Shown here in pieces: positions 1 through 7,625 of a stretch of DNA of 7,625 nt (position 1 is the stretch's first letter; every line of letters starts with the position of its first letter). This stretch comes from Candidatus Pacearchaeota archaeon (GTDB lineage Archaea; Nanoarchaeota; Nanoarchaeia; Pacearchaeales; GW2011-AR1). The stretch covers positions 1 to 7,625 of the forward strand of contig NZER01000073.1 in assembly GCA_002690445.1 (NCBI GenBank). The letters are read 5' to 3'. The notes below the pieces were generated by a model. It was not told the DNA's origin and did not search any database. It saw only the letters and a list, made by a program, of their open reading frames with translations. A program made the translations under genes and the position numbers.

Positions 1-3000
1 CAGGGTGCAAATGTACTTGGGCCGGAACTCAGTCAGGCAGGTCAGGCATTTATAGGTTTGCCCGCAACGATTTTGAACCTGTTGGATGATGGAGCAGTTC
101 AGCTCGGAACTGGCCTAGCAGACGCCGCCAAAGGAATAGGCTCTATAGACAATATAATGATAGAAGCCCTTACGGCATCATTAGCCCCTCTCACAGCAGC
201 TATGGCAGATGCTTCCAAGGGAATTAGCGCTGTTGACAACATAATGAACACCACTATGACAGGAGCGATGACACCACTCAAAACATCACTGACAGTGCTT
301 GATGGAGAATTTAAGAAGTTTGGTAAAGAGCTAATGCTTAAGCTCAAATATTTTGATGTTTTAAAGAAAGCCAATACTGATCTAGTTACCGTTATGGAGA
401 ATCTCGGCAAGCGGCTTACGGAAAAGGGTGATGATTTTGACATATTGAAACCACCTATTGCCGCTGTCGAGCAGGCACTTTTTAGGGTTTCTAATTACCT
501 GAACAACTTTTATCAGATCTTTACGCCACTTGCGGGGGCTGTGAAACAACTTGCTCTCTCCATGCAGAGGCAGGCGGGAGCCGCCGGTGTTGGCATAAAC
601 GCCGCAGCATTACAGGGGCCCATGACCCAGATGGCCGCAAATATGGCTAGGGCAGCCAAAGTTATGAGCAATATTGCAGTTATCGGCACCAATCTTCAGC
701 AGGCGATGGCTAATATGGTTGCGTCCCTTAATTCGGGTAAAGGTAGTATAAATAATATAACTATTAATTCCGCAGCCACAGCTCAGGAATTGGCCGAGCT
801 AAAGGCTGAACTAGCAAAGGCTCAAGCTAGAATATTAGAGCTGGAAAATGCCACAGCGCAAGCCTCCACTCAGATGAAAAAGACTGGTGCCGGAGCTGGT
901 GCCGGTGGGGGCATGATGATGATGGGTGGTGGTGGTGGTGCTGGCCAAATGGGGAACAACCTAATGATGGCGGGCATGGCGGCGGGAATGGTTGCCCAGA
1001 GTATGGACGGACTGAACGACAAAACAAAAACTTTCGTGACAGATATTACTATGATTGGTATGATGTTGGGAATGGTTGCAATGTCCTTTGCTCCTATGTT
1101 AAAGGGCCTGTTTCTGATGGCTGGAGCTTCGACTATGGCCGCTGCGGCAGATTCCGCAAAGGCCGCTGCTAGTGCCAAAGAAGTTCTGACGACCGAAATG
1201 GCGATTTTGGCAGATCTGGAGAAGGCAGCTGCTGGCCAAGCATGTTCGTTGGTAGATGCACAGAAAACGGTTGTCGGTGGTGCTGCTGCCCAAGCCGACA
1301 AATTGAAAACTCTTGCTGCCACGGAGGCTGCTGCGGCAGATAAAATGAAAAAAGGGGCGGCATTAATGGCAGCCGGAATTATGATAGGTCTTGCGGTAGC
1401 CGCTACTTATGTTATAATGAGAAGTAAGGCGCTTGGTGAACAGGCGAAAAAGCTAACCGAGGAATATCAAGATTCTATAAAACTGCTACAGGGCGGTGGT
1501 GGAGATATGAATGTCGCAGATGCTCAGGCTAAAGTTAGAGCTGCTCTTCAGAAAGAGGCAGAAGCTGCTGGGGCTACATTTGGTGGCTGGATGGCTGCGA
1601 TTGCTACAGCTATTGTAATTGCGATAGCTGCGGTAGCCCTGTTTGCTGCGAGCATTGCCACAGGTGGCATGGCGGCGGTTGCAGCAGCTGCGCTCATTGC
1701 GGGGGCTGGAGTTGCTGGAGCGGAAGCCGGGGCAGCATTTGCAACAGCAGAGGAGGCAATAACAGGGTCATCGGATTTGCTGGTACAGGCCACGGTGATG
1801 TCAGCCAAGGCTCTAGGGGAACATGCAAACGCAACAAAAGCTATGGAAATCGAGCAGCTTGAGGGTGTTGCTTTATTGGAACGTCAAAACCAAGCGTTTA
1901 CTGGTTTGGCGACGGGAGCAATCGGTGCATCAGCCGCTTTTGCTGCCTTTAGAGGGTCTATGGCCGGGATGGCCCCTGAGTTTAGAGGGGAGGTAATGGA
2001 TAGCGAGACCTTTGAGGCTGTAAAAGATACTGGCGTAGAGGCTATGAAGGCTATGTCGGATGCTCTTTATGCTGAAGCCCAAAAATTACAAACCAATATG
2101 GGTGGCGCTATAGACGAACTAGTAAAGGGCGGAATGGATGCCGGTGCCGCCTTCAATAGTGCCCAAATCCAGCAGGGGCTGAGAAACTATGAGGTGGCAA
2201 TTTTGGAGGCAACCAGAATAGCCATGATGCAATCAGGCCAAATGACGGGAGAGGCTAAGTTAAGGCTTGGTTTACAGGGCGTATTAGAAGAGAACATGTC
2301 AACCGAACAGAAGGCTGCTATTCAAGAAAAAGAAAATCAGTTAATACAAAAAGCATCAGCGGAACAAGCCAAAAAGGCTCGTGAAGCCCAAGAAAAGGCT
2401 ATGAAGGCCAAAATAGATGCGGATAAAAAAGCAGAAAAAGCCGCAGCGCAAAAACTAGCTGCCGATAAGGCAATGGCGGTACAGGCGTATGCGGCGCAAG
2501 TTGCCCTAGCTGAGTTTTCTGTAGGCCTTATCCAGCTAAAAATGACAACACAGACCGTCATGATGGAATTCGGCGCTCTTACGGGAACGATAAAACAGTT
2601 TAAGAGCAATACAGCGGACCTAATAAAATCGTTAGGCTCTGGTGTTATTACTCCGGAAGCAGAGCAGGCGGTAACAGGCCTTGGGGCTACCCTTGGAATC
2701 GAAAGAGAAGTAAAAGGCATTGTAGACTCAATGAAAGAAAATGAGCGTATACGTGAAATCTTAACCAAAAAGGGGTTAAAAGAGTTTACTGGCACACTCA
2801 GTGAGTCTGCGGCAAATCTTCGGTTTGATGATTTCCTGAAAAGAAATAATATTGATCTCTCGGGTCTTGATGCAGACGTGAGGGGTGAAATTATGGACAT
2901 GCTTAAGGATGGTCTTGACCCTTCAGAAATCACTAAGATTATGGGATATCTTGCGGATGCCAACAAGGAACAACTCAAGGCGCTCGGAGATTTAGCTAAA

Positions 3001-6000
3001 GCGCAAGACGCTTATTTAAATAGCCTTTCTAAATTTGCTGACGGGATTATAAAAGCGCAAAAGACTTATAGGGACTCGCTGGTTTTCCTTGCAGAAACTC
3101 AAATAAAGGGTGCAGAGCGTATAGCCAAGGCTACGGGTAGAGATCTAACAGTAAGAGAGGTTAGAGGTCAGGAACAGCAGGTAAGAAACGCGGGATTGGG
3201 GCTAAACTTGCGGGCCGGAGGGCCAAACGTTATTGGGGGGCAGATAGAGCAAAAAAGAAACCGATCTTCTCAAATATCAGGGGAAATTTCTGCACTGTCT
3301 AATATTGCGGGTAGTGGGGAGCAGATAGTAAAACTGCAAAATGAACAAAAACAACTCGCTGATGAAACTAAACAGCTAACAGCAAACCTTAAAAGTCTAG
3401 CAGACCAATCAAAATTAGCTGCCGCCATTATGGGCGAGATAGATAAAGAAAAGAGCAAACGAGAATCAATACAGGGGCTGATATCTGAGTTTACTTTTGC
3501 TAGTAATAAGGGTCGGCAGGAGATGGATAGGAATTTCATGGCTCTTCAGAGAGTGATGCAGACGGGGAACTTAAATAGTATTCCGGATGAAATGCGAGGA
3601 GCTGTTGGGGGATTGTTAGATTCGCTTAAGGATATAGCGATTGGACCTCAAGGTCAGACGGGCGGAGAGGTTAAGAAGATGTTAGAGATGCAGATGGCCA
3701 ATCAGCTAAAAATTAGAGCTACTGGTAAGCCTCTTACTGCGGAAGAGATGAACAAGATATTTAATCAGACAACAAAAGAAGAGCAACTTATAAATGACCT
3801 AAGAGCCTTAGGTGCGGAAGAGGTGGCGGCGGCGACTCAATTGGCCAACCAAGAAGCCGGAAAAATGGATCAGCTGATTCAAAGAATCGGTGAACTTATC
3901 ATGGTGCTTAAAAACGAGAGAAACGATGCGGCACAAAATTTAGCGATGGGTGGTGTGGTCTATGCTTCGGAGGGTCAGAGTATATTTAAACCTAAAGGCA
4001 CAGATACTGTTCCGGCTATGTTGACTCCGGGAGAATTTGTAGTAAATAAAACTGCGGCGAAGAAAAACTCCGGTGCCCTTCAGGCTATTAATAGTGGAAA
4101 AACTCAGTACTTGGCTGGTGGTGGGCCTGCGGGAGTGGGGCTTGGATCTTATACCGCTTCTGGCATTGGAGATGAAATAAAGTATGCGGCGGTGACTGAG
4201 GGCGTAGGGATAGCTGGACGGAGTATTGGGGATTGGATGAAGACGGCGTTTGACAACTATAATACGAGTGCTGATGGTGGATATCCGAGTAGATATCTAA
4301 TTAGAGATGCTGTCAAGGCGGGAGCAAATTCCATAGACTTGGCTGGGCTCCCTTCCAATGTCCCTCTGGAGGGGTTGTCGGGGCTGGCTTCTATGAAAAA
4401 TAAAGAGCTGAAATTCAATACACCCCGAGCAATGACTATAAGGGATATTGCTCCATTTGGATGGCTAGCCAAGCAAGGGCTACCCAGCGGTACTGAAACT
4501 AGCGCTCCAAACATTGAAGAAGTGGCAGTGCCCGGCGGATATACTTCTAGAATACCTAGCATAAATAAAGGGTTTTCTTACTTTTGGGCGGGTGGCCAAT
4601 CCGGATCAACTCCAGCGGGGTGGACGAGCAGAACAGCGGAGCCGGTAACAAGGAACGTAGCCAGTGGCGGTGTTGGTTCTGGTGGCGGTGGTATGCATAC
4701 GGTAACGCAAGACGAAGATGTAACGAGAAATTCGGATGACTTGGCTGAGTTTATTGATGAAACCAATGCAGGTCGAGCCGATCTCCCTAAATTCAAAACA
4801 TGGAGCGCTTGGGCTGATGCAGCAAGAACGGAGGTTGATGCTTTTGCAAAATTTCCACTATTGGACGCTTTGAGACTTACTTGGCTTGGCAGGGGTTACG
4901 GTGACGGTTTTAGCAAACTTGCCCGAAATGGTGCTTTAAACCCTGTAATAGAATCGTGGAATGGTGATAATCTTATGGCTCTAGCTGGCGGTCAATATGA
5001 CCCTCCTATTGATCCAAACGCCTCGTATTTTTCAGGCGCAAATATTAATAAGGAAGTTTTTCCTCGGGCGAAATTACAAAGAAACGATATGTTCTCCGGT
5101 AACGATAACGCTCAGTTTGGCATGCTGCAAAAAGATTTTCCAGATAAAGTAGAGGGACTCTTAAAGGTATATAATGACAATAGAGAAAATTTAGCAACAG
5201 CCGTCGCTAGTCGTTATTCGTATTGGCTTAGTAAGAAGATGCCCGAAATGCAAGAGGGGATTGACTCCTATCTGAAGGGGGAAACACACTGGGATGAAAA
5301 ATTCGGCGCTCAACTTCCGGCTGGAGGGGGCGGAATCGGGGGGCCCGGAGGGGCTTTGGTTCTTGATCCTGCGGCAGGTCCCGGATTCAGTGATGATTTT
5401 ATCAAACTTTCACCTCAAGCGTGGTGGGCTGAAGAAGGTCAGAAAATAGCCAAGTTTCAAGAAGCTTTAACGAAGGGCTCGAATGTAGAAGTGCTCGATA
5501 GAGAGGCAATCCACCAAGAATCCGGCAATAATGGAGGTTGGTTGAAAGTAGAGAGCATGGCAGCGGCTCTCAGTACCGCCGGAAAACCCGGAACCTACCC
5601 CCTCTATTCTAGACCCGGTGGAGTTCCTTTCCCTCTCTTCGATCAGCAGCAAGGTATACTTCAGGCTGGGTTTTTAGATATGTATAATAACCTCGGTCTC
5701 GTCGGTGTTAAAGATGGTCCCGACAAAGAACGAGACGCTTTTGCGATATACCTGACACAACTACAAAACCTGACTGGAATTAAGGGTAATTTTAAGGGAC
5801 AGTTAGAGGCTGTTAGGGAACAGAAGGCCGCAGATGAAGCTGCCGGAATAGCAGCGGCTGCCGCTGATGCTCAGGCCTTTGCCCAAGAAAATATGCGATT
5901 AAATATGGGTCTAGATTTTGGTGTGTTTAATGATCCCGTTGGGTTTATGACAGCAGCTCAGAAAAAAATGAAGGAGCTTAAAGCCTTTATGCCAACGCCG

Positions 6001-7625
6001 GGATATGCCCATCAGCTGGGTGTTTCAAGAAATGCCCAAAGACTCAACAAGGTGAAACCTAGCGCAAAGAATTTTGCTGCACTGTTTCCGTTTGCATCGT
6101 TCCTTATTCATGACATGAATTCACTATCCAAGGGGAATGCCCTTCAGTCTTTTGGTGTAGAGGGAATGAAATACAACTATAAGGCAATAAGAGACTCTTT
6201 AGGAGATATTGTTGAAAATCCTCGGCAGCCCGGAGATTTTACGTTTGAAAACCTCTTGGGCGGAGGTCAGGGGAATTTAAGAAGTCTAGTCGGTGGAAAA
6301 TTTGAAGCCGTTAAATTCTTGGGTGGTCGAGGCCTGTTTGGGCAGGCGGGAAAGTTGGCTCAGGAAGGGGGACTAATAACAACCCTTGCCACGACCGCCC
6401 CCAAAGGATGGTATAAAGGGCTCAATCGATATAAGGGCATAACGGACCCTGAAAAGAGCGTATCAGAGTTTTACTTTGGTGACGGTAGCATATTTAAAGG
6501 TAACATATTAGGTAGCATTATTGATGAATCGGTGGGTGTTATAAAAGCGCTTAGCGCGGAACTTGCTGCGGCAAAACAGAACGCGGCCGCTGCCCCGGTA
6601 GCAGGGGGAGCTATAGGTGCGGGGGTACAACTGCCCGGCTTCAATGCGACAGGTGGTCCTATTGACTGGTCTCCAAGAGGAACTGACACCGTTCCCACGA
6701 TGTTAACACCCGGCGAGTTTGTTATGAGAAAATCCGCCGTAGACAAGTACGGCGTGGGCTTTATGACTGCTATTAATGAAGGCAGAGGAACCTCTGGGAG
6801 ATATAAGCACGCTGGTGGTGTTGCTAGCGGTAGTGTTTCACAGTTTGGCCCACAAGAAGACTTGCGTATCGATAGAGTGTTAAGCAACACGCAAACAACC
6901 TCCAAAACCGTTAAGAAGATAGCGGGCATGATAACCAATGTGGACAGTAAAACCACTAATCAGGAAGACCTATTAAATAGTTTTAACACAATGAGTGAAG
7001 CTGATTCGGCACTTTCCGCCCAAATCCAGTCGGGACTCTCCGCCATATTCAATCAGCGAATAGAACTCCCCGCAGATCTTGGTGCGGGTATTGTTGGTGA
7101 TATAACAGGTGTATTTTTGGCTCAGCTTGGCACCCTCAGGCAGTTGCTCGATGGAGACCATGACTTCTTGAAACGGCAGTCGCAGACTAATTTCTGGCGC
7201 TTGGCAAACGCCATACCAGCAATGATGAGACCTTTTAATCCGGCGCCACCCCCTCAGTTTATGGCCACGGGAGGTATGGCTAGAGGAACCGACACTGTTC
7301 CCGCAATGTTAACTCCCGGCGAATTTGTAATGAAGAAAAGCGCTGTTGATAAGTATGGCGTAGGCTTTATGAGAAGTCTTAATAATGGCGCCTCTCCTAC
7401 ATCAAGGTCAAGAGGTGTACAATACCTTCAAAATGGAGACTTAGCAACATCGGGTGGCGGAAACCTCTTTGCAGGGGTCGGAGATATTGTTTCTTCAATT
7501 AGTGACTCTTTATCCGCCTTTACGCAAGCTTTTAGCTTATTTAGTGGGCTTTCTAACCTGCTAAGCAATACAATTAATAGTATGGCAGACATGAATATAA
7601 CCCATACAATTAACATTAATGGAAG
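1..7625 (+). CDS. Giant phage tail tape measure-like protein, internal fragment (both ends open)
   Basis: Frame 1 is open for all 2,541 codons; start and stop lie outside the window, so no start can be chosen. A tape measure protein fills the tail tube, sets tail length during assembly and leaves the virion at DNA ejection. Support: a long helical Ala/Met/Lys/Glu/Gln-rich region (residues 1-1315) with a heptad coiled coil (about 259-295), hydrophobic segments (about 349-574), and three Gly-flanked modules with core GTDTVPxMLTPGEFV (residues 1333, 2227 and 2429 onward), a motif I recall from the C-terminal parts of phage tape measure proteins. A beta-like NITHTINING motif closes the window. 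The only Cys is residue 416. No peptidase or lysozyme motif was recognised. Many tape measure proteins have several hundred to about 2,000 residues, so this one is unusually long. Another giant virion protein, for example an ejected internal protein, is the main alternative. The phage origin is more certain than the exact role. Confidence 0.85.
115..288 (+). repeat. Tandem 29-residue protein repeat (two units)
   Basis: Two adjacent 29-codon units, 115-201 and 202-288, align without gaps. They share 13 of 29 residues, including the patterns ADAxKGI and DNIM followed by T(5)PL; most other differences are conservative (I/V, L/M, A/S). The DNA of the units has diverged, so this is an old protein-level duplication. 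Both units look amphipathic and helical. Short helical repeats are common in the rod of tape measure proteins, where gain or loss of units alters length. Further, more degenerate units may lie upstream of the window. Confidence 0.7.
289..744 (+). other. Helical N-terminal segment of the rod
   Basis: Residues 97-248 of the fragment are predicted by eye to be mainly helical. A charged part (LDGEFKKFGKEL onward, about 289-480) is followed by a Met/Ala/Gln-rich part (about 547-735) with regularly spaced Met, Leu and Ala. Pro is rare, and there is no Trp, His or Cys. I recognise no domain family. The composition suits the packed helical rod of a tape measure protein but is not specific for it. Confidence 0.5.
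745..885 (+). other. Beta-like motif followed by heptad coiled coil
   Basis: A short alternating motif (SINNITINSA, 745-774) leads directly into a regular coiled coil. Core residues at nucleotides 790 (L), 799 (L), 811 (L), 820 (A), 832 (I) and 841 (L) follow strict 3-4 spacing, with Glu, Lys, Gln and Arg between them. The coil spans roughly five heptads and ends at the Gly-rich hinge. Such a coil is a likely self-association site; tape measure proteins are present in several copies per tail. The oligomeric state cannot be read from the sequence. Confidence 0.7.
886..960 (+). repeat. Gly/Met-rich low-complexity hinge with ATG and GGT triplet runs
   Basis: The encoded stretch alternates Gly and Ala, then has four Met in a row (ATG x4, 913-924) and five Gly in a row (GGT x5, 925-939). 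It separates the coiled coil from the hydrophobic cluster and is probably a flexible linker. Pure triplet runs can gain or lose units by replication slippage without shifting the frame, so the length here may vary between relatives. Confidence 0.8.
961..1149 (+). other. Hydrophobic segment 1 (Met/Ala/Gly-rich)
   Basis: After a Met/Ala/Gly-rich lead (961-1000) and a short polar stretch (about 1003-1038), two hydrophobic runs occur: 1045-1101, rich in Met, Leu, Gly and Ile, and 1105-1149. They are separated by a Lys-Gly turn and followed by an Ala-rich helix. Hydrophobic segments of this type occur in many tape measure proteins and are thought to contact or enter the host inner membrane during DNA ejection. 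The Met/Gly bias makes this a weaker transmembrane candidate than the segment at 1354. Confidence 0.55.
1354..1419 (+). other. Hydrophobic segment 2, candidate transmembrane helix
   Basis: Twenty-two uncharged, mostly hydrophobic residues (from GAALMAAG to TYVIM) are bounded by Lys-Lys before and Arg-Ser-Lys after. Length and flanking charges match a single membrane-spanning helix. In a tape measure protein this would be a candidate for membrane insertion at ejection, not a resident membrane anchor. Packing inside the tail tube is also possible. Confidence 0.6.
1588..1740 (+). other. Hydrophobic segments 3 and 4, candidate transmembrane hairpin
   Basis: The first run, about 24 residues at 1588-1659, starts at the only Trp of the N-terminal 1,400 residues and is rich in Ala, Ile and Val. 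After a Thr-Gly-Gly turn, a second Ala/Gly/Val-rich run spans 1663-1722. There is no charged residue between 1588 and 1722; the first is Glu at 1723. The turn between two uncharged helices suggests a helical hairpin. This is the most hydrophobic part of the window. Confidence 0.6.
1741..2280 (+). other. Mixed helical region without recognised domain
   Basis: Residues 581-760 are Ala-, Glu- and Met-rich with a second, weaker hydrophobic patch (about 1900-1960, TGLATGAIGASAAFAAF). This patch is followed by acidic amphipathic sequence. Spacing of Leu, Met and Ala suggests helices. I cannot assign a family. Confidence 0.45.
2281..2520 (+). other. Ala/Lys/Glu/Gln-rich long charged helix
   Basis: About 80 residues are dominated by Ala, Lys, Glu and Gln, with no Pro or Gly. 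Repeated patterns such as EQAKKAREAQEK and ADKKAEKAAAQK resemble the long solvent-exposed helix of TolA-type proteins. That is a likeness of composition and not evidence of homology. It most likely forms an extended single helix or a weak coiled coil in the rod. Confidence 0.7.
2521..3240 (+). other. Helical rod region, no recognised domain
   Basis: Residues 841-1080 are amphipathic and charged, with Leu/Ile spacing typical of helices and little Pro. There is no Trp, His or Cys. The last part (3181-3240) becomes Gly- and Asn-rich (NAGLGLNLRAGGPN) and may be a loop before the next coiled coil. No catalytic or binding motif was seen. Confidence 0.45.
3241..3480 (+). other. Coiled-coil-prone helix
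   Basis: A Gln/Lys/Glu/Leu/Ser-rich stretch with hydrophobic spacing runs from about 3250 to 3480 (for example KLQNEQKQLADETKQLTANL). A short Gly-Ser-Gly break lies near 3310-3320. It resembles a segmented coiled coil of about 70 residues. Confidence 0.6.
3481..3945 (+). other. Helical segment leading into module 1
   Basis: Residues 1161-1315 are helical in character. A Gly-containing middle (3600-3665) is followed by an acidic amphipathic helix (3778-3936, with Glu-Glu pairs, ATQLANQEAGK and IQRIGELIMVLKNE). This last helix runs directly into module 1. A helix ahead of the Gly-Gly and TDTVP region fits the arrangement I recall for tape measure proteins. Confidence 0.5.
3946..4125 (+). repeat. 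TDTVP module, copy 1
   Basis: The module starts with Met-Gly-Gly and continues through a 13-residue spacer to the core GTDTVPAMLTPGEFV (3997-4041). It then reads VNKTAAKKN, an Asn-Ser-Gly turn and YLAGGG (4108-4125). The core is identical to that of copy 3, but the part after it lacks the KSAVDKYGVGFM sequence shared by copies 2 and 3, so copy 1 is a separate subtype. I recall similar modules in phage tape measure proteins; their function is not known to me. Gly-rich edges suggest a small folded unit between flexible linkers. Confidence 0.85.
4666..4692 (+). other. Gly-rich linker A
   Basis: The encoded sequence SGGVGSGGGG is flexible and lies between a Trp-, Pro- and Gly-containing part and an acidic helical part. 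It probably marks a domain boundary inside the block between modules 1 and 2. Confidence 0.6.
5323..5355 (+). other. Gly-rich linker B
   Basis: The encoded sequence AGGGGIGGPGG separates a helical Tyr/Trp-containing part from the following part with a Trp-Trp pair (5422-5427). It is a likely domain boundary. The DNA here contains G runs of five and six bases, where sequencing or assembly errors are plausible, but the frame stays open on both sides. Confidence 0.6.
6646..6819 (+). repeat. TDTVP module, copy 2
   Basis: The unit begins Ala-Thr-Gly-Gly, has a short Pro/Trp spacer, then GTDTVPTMLTPGEFV (6679-6723), MRKSAVDKYGVGFM and a Gly-rich tail ending YKHAGG. From 6679 to 6765 it matches copy 3 at 27 of 29 residues, the changes being Thr for Ala and Arg for Lys. 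The single Thr in place of Ala after VP is the only change in the 15-residue core among the three copies. Confidence 0.87.
6820..7260 (+). other. Helical spacer between modules 2 and 3
   Basis: About 147 residues begin with a Ser/Gly-rich and acidic piece, continue through a polar Thr/Asn/Lys-rich helix (6880-6970) and Leu/Gln-rich amphipathic helices (6990-7150), and end in a Pro-rich stretch (NPAPPPQF, 7240-7260) next to module 3. No family was recognised. Confidence 0.45.
7261..7437 (+). repeat. TDTVP module, copy 3
   Basis: The unit begins Met-Ala-Thr-Gly-Gly, with a very short spacer (MAR) before GTDTVPAMLTPGEFV (7285-7329). It continues MKKSAVDKYGVGFM, an Asn-Asn-Gly turn, a Ser/Arg-rich stretch and VQYLQNG. 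It shares with copy 1 the core and the final Tyr-Leu plus Gly ending, and with copy 2 the middle section, so the three together define the module borders. Confidence 0.87.
7438..7625 (+). other. Hydrophobic helix and beta-like motif near the protein C-terminus
   Basis: After module 3 comes a Gly/Ser-rich linker, then a Phe/Leu/Ser-rich amphipathic helix (7465-7580) and the alternating motif MNITHTINING (7591-7623) at the window edge. I recall a similar strand followed by a final helix at the end of tape measure proteins, so the stop codon may lie a short distance downstream. That distance is an inference, since no stop is in the window. Confidence 0.55.

Follow-up and report, generated by a model that had tools for sequence, protein, structure and literature searches.

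Module copies in a partial tape-measure protein

The window analysed here is a stretch of 7,625 nucleotides (contig NZER01000073.1, assembled under Candidatus Pacearchaeota archaeon). It carries a long open reading frame (ORF) in which a short unit with the core GTDTVP, hereafter called the module, occurs in three copies, M1, M2 and M3 (Table 1). Full-length relatives of the product were found on two IMG/VR contigs, L001 (3575 aa) and L002 (3555 aa), with best segments 64% and 63% identical to the window. L001 carries PF10145 (PhageMin_Tail) at residues 138-342 (E 9e-24), and the window sequence begins downstream of this N-terminal domain. Since PF10145 is present in the full-length L001, the window is, as judged by sequence comparison, part of the gene for a tail tape-measure protein (TMP) of giant size from a phage, of which it covers the middle and C-terminal portions. 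TMPs determine how long the tail becomes. PF10145 was also listed for 98 of the best 120 of 4599 homologues of the M2-M3 region, and for P0001, which is 85% identical across 96% of the query region. Both a very long ORF and hydrophobic segments, which are traits of TMPs, are present in the window protein. The strongly hydrophobic cluster is what would be expected of the membrane-channel part of a TMP; like segments of L001 and L002 sit between module copies 2 and 3.

All three copies were found in frame 1, with GTDTVP beginning at nt 3997, 6679 and 7285. They share the plan given for them in a preliminary description of this DNA: Gly-Gly, spacer, Lys/Arg, GTDTVP(A/T)MLTPGEFV, K-(T/S)-A, Asn-x-Gly, and a Gly-containing end with Tyr. 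BLASTP comparison of the 64-65 aa copies with the window protein (filters off) gave E values of 4e-21 to 9e-21 for M2/M3, 1e-12 for M1/M2 and 9e-12 to 2e-11 for M1/M3, against 0.17 or worse for the next-best local matches within the protein; a chance repeat as the origin of the three copies is ruled out by this difference. The near-invariance of the core in diverged copies, also claimed there, was confirmed, 14-15 of 15 residues being identical. Among degenerate codons of shared core residues, those that differ number 11/13 for M1/M2, 8/14 for M1/M3 and 5/13 for M2/M3, indicating that the protein sequence is what is kept. Recent duplication or gene conversion as the cause of the likeness is ruled out by the diverged codons, least strongly for M2/M3.

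The count of three in one protein is right for the window and too low for the protein, because the window edges cut it. L001 and L002 each carry five copies, of which M1, M2 and M3 represent the last three, and the full window protein probably has two further copies upstream, as the alignment suggests. M1 is the copy least like the other two. Core identity between the window and L001/L002 is 60% for M1, 90% for M2 and 100% for M3; the value of M1 is at the 59th percentile of 35-residue stretches in the window protein, that is, M1 is typical and no better kept than average.

Table 1. Positions of features in the window
Feature	Position (nt)	Strand	Details
Partial TMP ORF	1..7623	+	2541 aa, open at both ends; frame 1; first and last residues aligned to residues 932 and 3529 of the 3575-aa TMP of L001
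Hydrophobic, potentially membrane-spanning segments	1045..1722	+	Within aa 349-574; Kyte-Doolittle, 19-residue window
Upstream GG box of M1	3946..3957	+	MGGV
Module core M1	3994..4098	+	35-residue profile; copy 3 of 5 in L001/L002
Downstream Tyr/GG box of M1	4105..4125	+	QYLAGGG
Exchangeable cassette M1-M2	4141..6660	+	aa 1381-2220 (~840 aa); 0.10-0.32 identity per 60 residues to L001/L002; no Pfam match
Upstream GG box of M2	6646..6657	+	ATGG
Module core M2	6676..6780	+	Copy 4 of 5
Downstream box of M2	6802..6819	+	YKHAGG
Second exchangeable segment, M2-M3	6841..7200	+	0.68-0.95 identity to L002; replaced in L001, to which identity is 0.25-0.35
Upstream box of M3	7261..7275	+	MATGG
Module core M3	7282..7386	+	Copy 5 of 5 (last); two short helices predicted, moderate confidence
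Downstream Tyr/Gly end of M3	7417..7437	+	VQYLQNG
Start of C-terminal segment	7453..7623	+	Strongly conserved; last 46 residues (by L001) beyond window

Conservation and subtypes of the module

The consensus of the module is KGTDTVPAMLTPGEFVINKSAVQKIGLGNLKAINK. Most core positions are more than 95% conserved within the 123-protein set of the window, and D and E alone are invariant over 24 diverse modules. Among 735 distinct modules, as counted after merging duplicates, a GG was found at most 26 residues upstream of the core in 704 (background 19%) and at most 47 residues downstream in 667 (background 31%). Tyr or Phe occupies the third position ahead of the downstream GG in 56% (background 5.6%), and basic residues just ahead of this GG are also enriched (37% vs 12%). 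The enrichment of GG and of Tyr/Phe indicates that the unit is a core between two (F/Y)-A-x-GG boxes. We read the module as a turn-and-helix core of about 35 aa, usually bracketed by two GG boxes. A structure model of M3 built from 110 rows shows two short helices with a 10-residue mean pLDDT of 79-82, and lower values elsewhere; an earlier 386-aa model made from three sequences had a mean pLDDT of 32.5.

The copies fall into subtypes by place. For 200 of 596 modules, sampled with near-identical neighbours excluded, the nearest relative in another protein shares the place of the copy (first, middle or last) in 169 tests, as compared with about 43% expected from class sizes. The copies are therefore old and position-specific.

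Neither Pfam nor NCBIfam gave a match to the window protein at E<=1, and no model for the module alone was found when Pfam was scanned with the whole window protein and NCBIfam also with the three module-bearing pieces at the same limit. For 12 other module-bearing proteins the Pfam or NCBIfam matches lie outside the module, except TIGR01541 on lambda gpH 472-813, which is a 332-position lambda-family model and not a module model; Pfam matches also lie outside the module in 9/9 cyanophage-type proteins scanned. PHROGs 35029 and 35723, annotated as of unknown function, each match the window protein in three stretches, the best being the module regions (window 6625-6780 and 7237-7461), and these two families may belong to tape-measure proteins. 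The pattern GExGxE..V.P, seen in T5 pb2, was found in 0/123 proteins of the window's set. In the mostly open-access literature searched, no listed title or abstract was found to treat the module as a repeated unit, and nothing recognisably on tape-measure proteins was among the entries listed for the motif strings. The module is common in TMPs, yet these scans turned up no curated family dedicated to it.

Distribution and copy number

The 4599 homologues of the M2-M3 region were collected at E<=1e-3 in a search restricted to proteins of similar length, and all of the best 120 bear at least two module copies: two in 1 protein, three in 4, four in 37, five in 46, six in 30 and seven in 2. The idea that three copies match a trimeric hub is rejected on this range of 2-7. 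Symmetry matching to such a hub, raised in the preliminary description, is not supported by copy numbers of 1-7 per protein, the trimeric TMPs of Douge, JBD30 and lambda having two modules, one and one. Copy number grows with TMP length (Spearman 0.63 over the 120 proteins), and the first copy has a preferred place at median residue 481 (quartiles 473-536) over the 123-protein set.

The same description called for a survey of phage proteins, and this pointed to the same protein class. With a 45-residue query and a permissive limit of E 10, matches were obtained in 732 of 50,697 INPHARED records, 388 of them with 80% query coverage; of 60 rows sampled down this ranking, 56 were named tape measure, and the remaining four were a lysozyme, a transmembrane protein and two hypothetical proteins, three of the four from Synechococcus phages. 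The 82 viral-contig loci yielded 81 ORFs that bear the module, each in 1 to 6 copies, one locus (L087) giving none under the search rules. Module matches were dropped at a domain E>=1e-3 for the 120-protein, 123-protein, seam and cyanophage sets, and at E>=0.01 for the viral loci. Lambda gpH and the JBD30 protein are among the module-bearing TMPs whose N-terminus belongs to another Pfam type.

With a Synechococcus protein as query, 2728 relatives were found at E<=1e-3, of the best 120 of which 66 have one module and 54 have two; none of these 120 has PF10145 or a listed tape-measure name. Random occurrence in unrelated proteins, named as the refuting outcome for a specific job, is thus countered by most named matches being tape measures, and finds some room in the cyanophage-type set, in which PF10145 is lacking and the module sits mid-protein. 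The module genes of the two Synechococcus phages examined, S-SM2 and S-SCSM1, follow the baseplate hub subunit gene within the baseplate-hub gene cluster, and their products are candidates for the TMPs of these phages. The module-bearing proteins are annotated as transmembrane protein in S-SM2 (L011 6678-8978) and as lysozyme in S-SCSM1 (L007 8177-11029).

Modules at the borders of exchangeable segments

Identity between the window and L001/L002 is 0.49-0.53 around M1, drops over aa 1381-2220, and then reaches 0.86 at M2. The M1-M2 interval is divergent although L001 and L002 are otherwise closer relatives, and this cassette is possibly a cargo domain. In a wider test, 100 TMP pairs were compared with the module masked and the controls given the same masked gap, since a conserved island alone creates identity breaks. 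Pairs whose mean identity exceeded 0.9 or fell below 0.2 were set aside, as were sites too close to an end, and no protein was taken more than twice. Flank identity differs by at least 0.4 at 138/519 module sites, as compared with 4.5% of 12,974 control sites; of the 519, identity is low on both sides at 246 and high on both sides at 87. Module sites exceed controls in 92/100 pairs (p 2e-17; the pairs share proteins and so are not independent). Modules mark borders between exchangeable TMP segments.

A cell-wall enzyme is among the listed Pfam domains of 14 of the best 120 of the 2728 cyanophage-type proteins. In 9/9 scanned of these 14, the enzyme (Hydrolase_2, GH19, M15 with SLT, or phage lysozyme) begins 33-149 aa after the last module. 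The glucosaminidase of S-SCSM1 and the M23 peptidase of LukeCage are also downstream of a module. Among the listed Pfam domains of the best 120 of the 4599 giant TMPs, no cell-wall enzyme was found.

Place of the last copy

In 74/78 closed viral ORFs the last copy is located 78-170 aa before the C-terminus. Counted from its start, the distance is 78-95 aa in 58 ORFs, 100-125 in 8, 130-170 in 8 and farther in 4. These ORFs, of 268-4009 aa, have their stop inside the contig; some are cut on the N-terminal side, the set is not dereplicated, and three open-ended ORFs were excluded. In the 123-protein set the median distance is 169 aa (5-95% range 150-352). The distance is kept irrespective of protein length, and the last copy is followed by a strand and then a helix-like stretch in most of 15 tails judged by eye. 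A second viral-contig scan for the C-terminus gave 5 loci, and a PDB search with the C-terminus of LukeCage gave no match. The set place of the last copy, together with the presence of at least two copies in the best 120 of 4599, the tape-measure names of 56 of the 60 sampled INPHARED rows and the position-specific subtypes, supports the specific binding or structural job that had been proposed for the module.

The TMP is described as a trimer in Douge, JBD30 and lambda, and the TMP residues resolved as hub-bound in closed virions are given as 1658-1699 in Douge, 818-842 in lambda gpH and the last 33 in JBD30 (PMC11445458 for JBD30). The modules lie at 976-1010 and 1424-1457 of PDB 8zdo (taken as Douge, length 1699), at 732-794 of gpH and at 1031-1063 of JBD30, that is, two modules per TMP in Douge and one each in the others. 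All are upstream of the hub-bound segments so far as these are given, which exclude them. The hub binding of TMP C-termini is known, according to the accounts available, from other phages and not from relatives of the window.

Relation to tape-measure proteins of known structure

Two module profiles, A1 made of the 24 diverse modules and A5, were searched against PDB sequences. Four sequences matched A1 at E<=10, each carrying the name tape measure: Douge at 3.5e-18 and JBD30 at 2.5e-4, with lambda gpH (0.45) and 8vjh (1) as weak matches. A5 found lambda gpH at 1e-4; four of its six PDB rows, at E 0.6-0.7, belong to fructose-bisphosphatase and are regarded as chance matches. Profile-profile comparison with A5 gave 3e-7 for lambda and 5.8e-6 for JBD30, with 0.79 and 0.39 for two negative controls, and the profile of the window's own set scored gpH at 17.7 bits. 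On these sequence scores, the module is homologous to the stretches in lambda gpH and JBD30. For T5 pb2 the same profile-profile comparison gave E 0.34, no better than the controls, and touched only the R|AEGG region.

For JBD30 gp46, residues 1022-1066 are predicted to form a hook made up of two helices plus a short hairpin, similar to the hook of T5 (PMC11445458). As proposed by its authors, this hook would retain the TMP within the opened baseplate once the C-terminus leaves (PMC11445458). For T5, the hook residues of the cleaved TMP are described as sitting in the opened hub, while the muralytic part follows and is split off (PMC10038345).

A proposed anchoring hook and its alternatives

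The reading that we put first, tentatively and at somewhat under an even chance, is that the module is a seam element of TMPs whose last copy acts as an anchoring hook. Anchoring by the last copy is suggested by analogy to the predicted hook of JBD30 and the T5 precedent. The set place of this copy, the cell-wall enzymes that come after it and the seams count in favour of this reading. As long as the virion is closed, the TMP trimer would be held in the hub by its short C-terminal segment. On opening of the hub, this segment would leave, along with any murein enzyme, and the hook would then catch in the opened baseplate. The anchored TMP, with its hydrophobic segments outside, could thereby stay in register with the tail while forming the DNA channel. 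The extra copies in giant TMPs might be further hooks, or joints flanking the exchangeable cassettes. Docking on the tail tip had been listed among the possible functions; this is not seen in the closed virion, where the hub-bound segments as published exclude the modules, and is kept for the state after tube opening, for which it is predicted in JBD30. Docking after tube opening is thus the preferred form.

Several points weigh against such a hook. Anchoring by the module is a proposal, for JBD30 as well, in which the hook itself is, as the source presents it, a prediction. The JBD30 match is weaker in two of four profile tests: it is absent from the A5 matches in PDB at E<=10, and with the profile of the window's own set it scores 0.5 bits, as a distant member. 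The T5 pb2 hook (1085-1127) has no hidden Markov model match to the module, and the available account of the lambda open state has gpH exiting the tube with no mention of a gpH hook. The M3 model has an overall mean pLDDT of 64, a pTM of 0.31 and no beta-hairpin, and Foldseek gave no match for it in PDB at E<=10, so that structure prediction yielded two short helices with moderate confidence and no fold match. Against BFVD there were 23 matches, none at E<=0.001, six of them named tape measure and one from a Pandoravirus at E 9.2. Copies 1-3 of giant TMPs are more than 1000 residues from the C-terminus, too far for an easily pictured hub hook. The cyanophage-type module lies at a median relative position of 0.48, in proteins that are only putative TMPs of T4-like cyanophages, and in Gordonia phage Dolores a transglycosylase (SLT domain) precedes a module.

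Other roles were weighed against the anchoring hook. That the module is a processing seam, recognised together with its AxGG boxes by a maturation protease so that the TMP is cut there and the pieces separate in the tail, we hold to be unlikely. The T5 TMP is cut after R1127, as located by mass spectrometry (PMC10038345), at a sequence of the same form as the AxGG boxes, and the JBD30 authors propose a cut at R1066, just past the module (PMC11445458); the basic residues ahead of the downstream GG would fit as well. However, the T5 cut is in a region without significant module match, the proposed JBD30 cut is not at its GG box, the strongest enrichment before the downstream GG is for Tyr/Phe and not for basic residues, and no mapped cleavage site in a module-bearing TMP was found in the published texts available. 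Binding to the tail assembly chaperone, the tail-tube wall or a hub protein during building, with no part in ejection, is rather improbable: the spread of copies along the protein, their rise in number with TMP length and the preferred place of the first copy would suit it, but the copies are few and unevenly spaced for repeated wall contact, the last copy follows the C-terminus and not the length, and the hub-bound residues resolved in the three closed virions, as reported, exclude the module.

To about the same low degree we expect the module to be a passive joint, a compact linker stringing bulky cassettes on the tape without a specific partner. Its location at identity borders, the Gly-containing boxes on both sides and the loose core across phages are all as such a joint would have them; in contrast, the conservation of most core positions among the 123 relatives is more than a passive linker requires, and the position-specific subtypes argue for specific partners. 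A further reading, which we consider quite improbable, takes giant TMPs as segmented delivery devices, each of the 4-7 modules ending a segment with its own hook and release seam. Exchangeable cargo, such as murein enzymes or the M1-M2 cassette, would then be delivered in order, with the segments catching in the hub in turn.

Significance

The signature of the module in lambda gpH, JBD30 and several actinophage and vibriophage TMPs offers a handle, in genetically tractable phages, on how the TMP passes through the envelope with the tail still attached. For annotators, the module could mark TMPs and the borders of cargo domains, and this border marking could aid the discovery of murein-cutting enzymes in giant TMPs without recognised domains. 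TMPs are described as poorly resolved in virion structures. The finding is in part ordinary, the module being a frequent TMP element, and in part useful, as an uncatalogued element with a testable role.

Neighbouring genes

In the module-bearing siphophages examined, the annotated TMP gene is downstream of tail genes, with the exception of L009, in which no annotated tail gene precedes it. The proteins of the genes next to the L001 TMP gave no match in PHROGs (0/10) or Pfam (0/9). The gene directly after the TMP (L001 19447-28551, L002 19390-28653) encodes a product of 3034-3087 aa, the L001 copy of which has no PHROGs or Pfam match. A PDB search with the window piece from M2 to the end gave no match at E<=10.

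Comparison with known systems

The TMPs with PF10145 resemble that of the window in sharing the N-terminal domain of its full-length relative L001. JBD30 gp46 resembles the module in the sequence match at 1031-1063 and the predicted helices, and, as far as the published description goes, in its location, which is 95 residues from the C-terminal end and ahead of the coiled coil bound to the hub. It differs from the window's set in having one copy and TMP_3 (PF20155) in place of PF10145, while the best 120 of the 4599 relatives have 2-7 copies and cassettes. In lambda gpH the match at 732-794 includes both boxes, FATGG and YATGG, about 80 residues before the C-terminus, whereas the DTVP half of the core is degenerate, the copy is single, and the N-terminus is TMP_2 (PF06791).

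The hook of T5 pb2 (1085-1127) is similar to the module in its proposed role, being 42-43 residues long and located upstream of the released C-terminal domain as described (PMC10038345). It has no significant sequence relation to the module, and its relatives carry other Pfam families, PF24164/PF24165; the best 120 of 445 proteins in the T5 homologue search are close T5 relatives. The cut site of T5 pb2 (L095 122-3781, minus strand) reads R|AEGG, in the form of the module boxes, with a non-significant profile match. The 11-residue repeats described for TMPs (PMC3271669) are short tandem units with spaced aromatic residues, while the module is longer and dispersed. Motifs 1-3 of mycobacteriophage TMPs, as described, are known TMP inserts similar to the optional cassettes (PMC1796659); motif 3 hydrolyses peptidoglycan and is reported to be dispensable for viability (PMC1796659). 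Such motifs would correspond to the cargo, and the module to the seam element.

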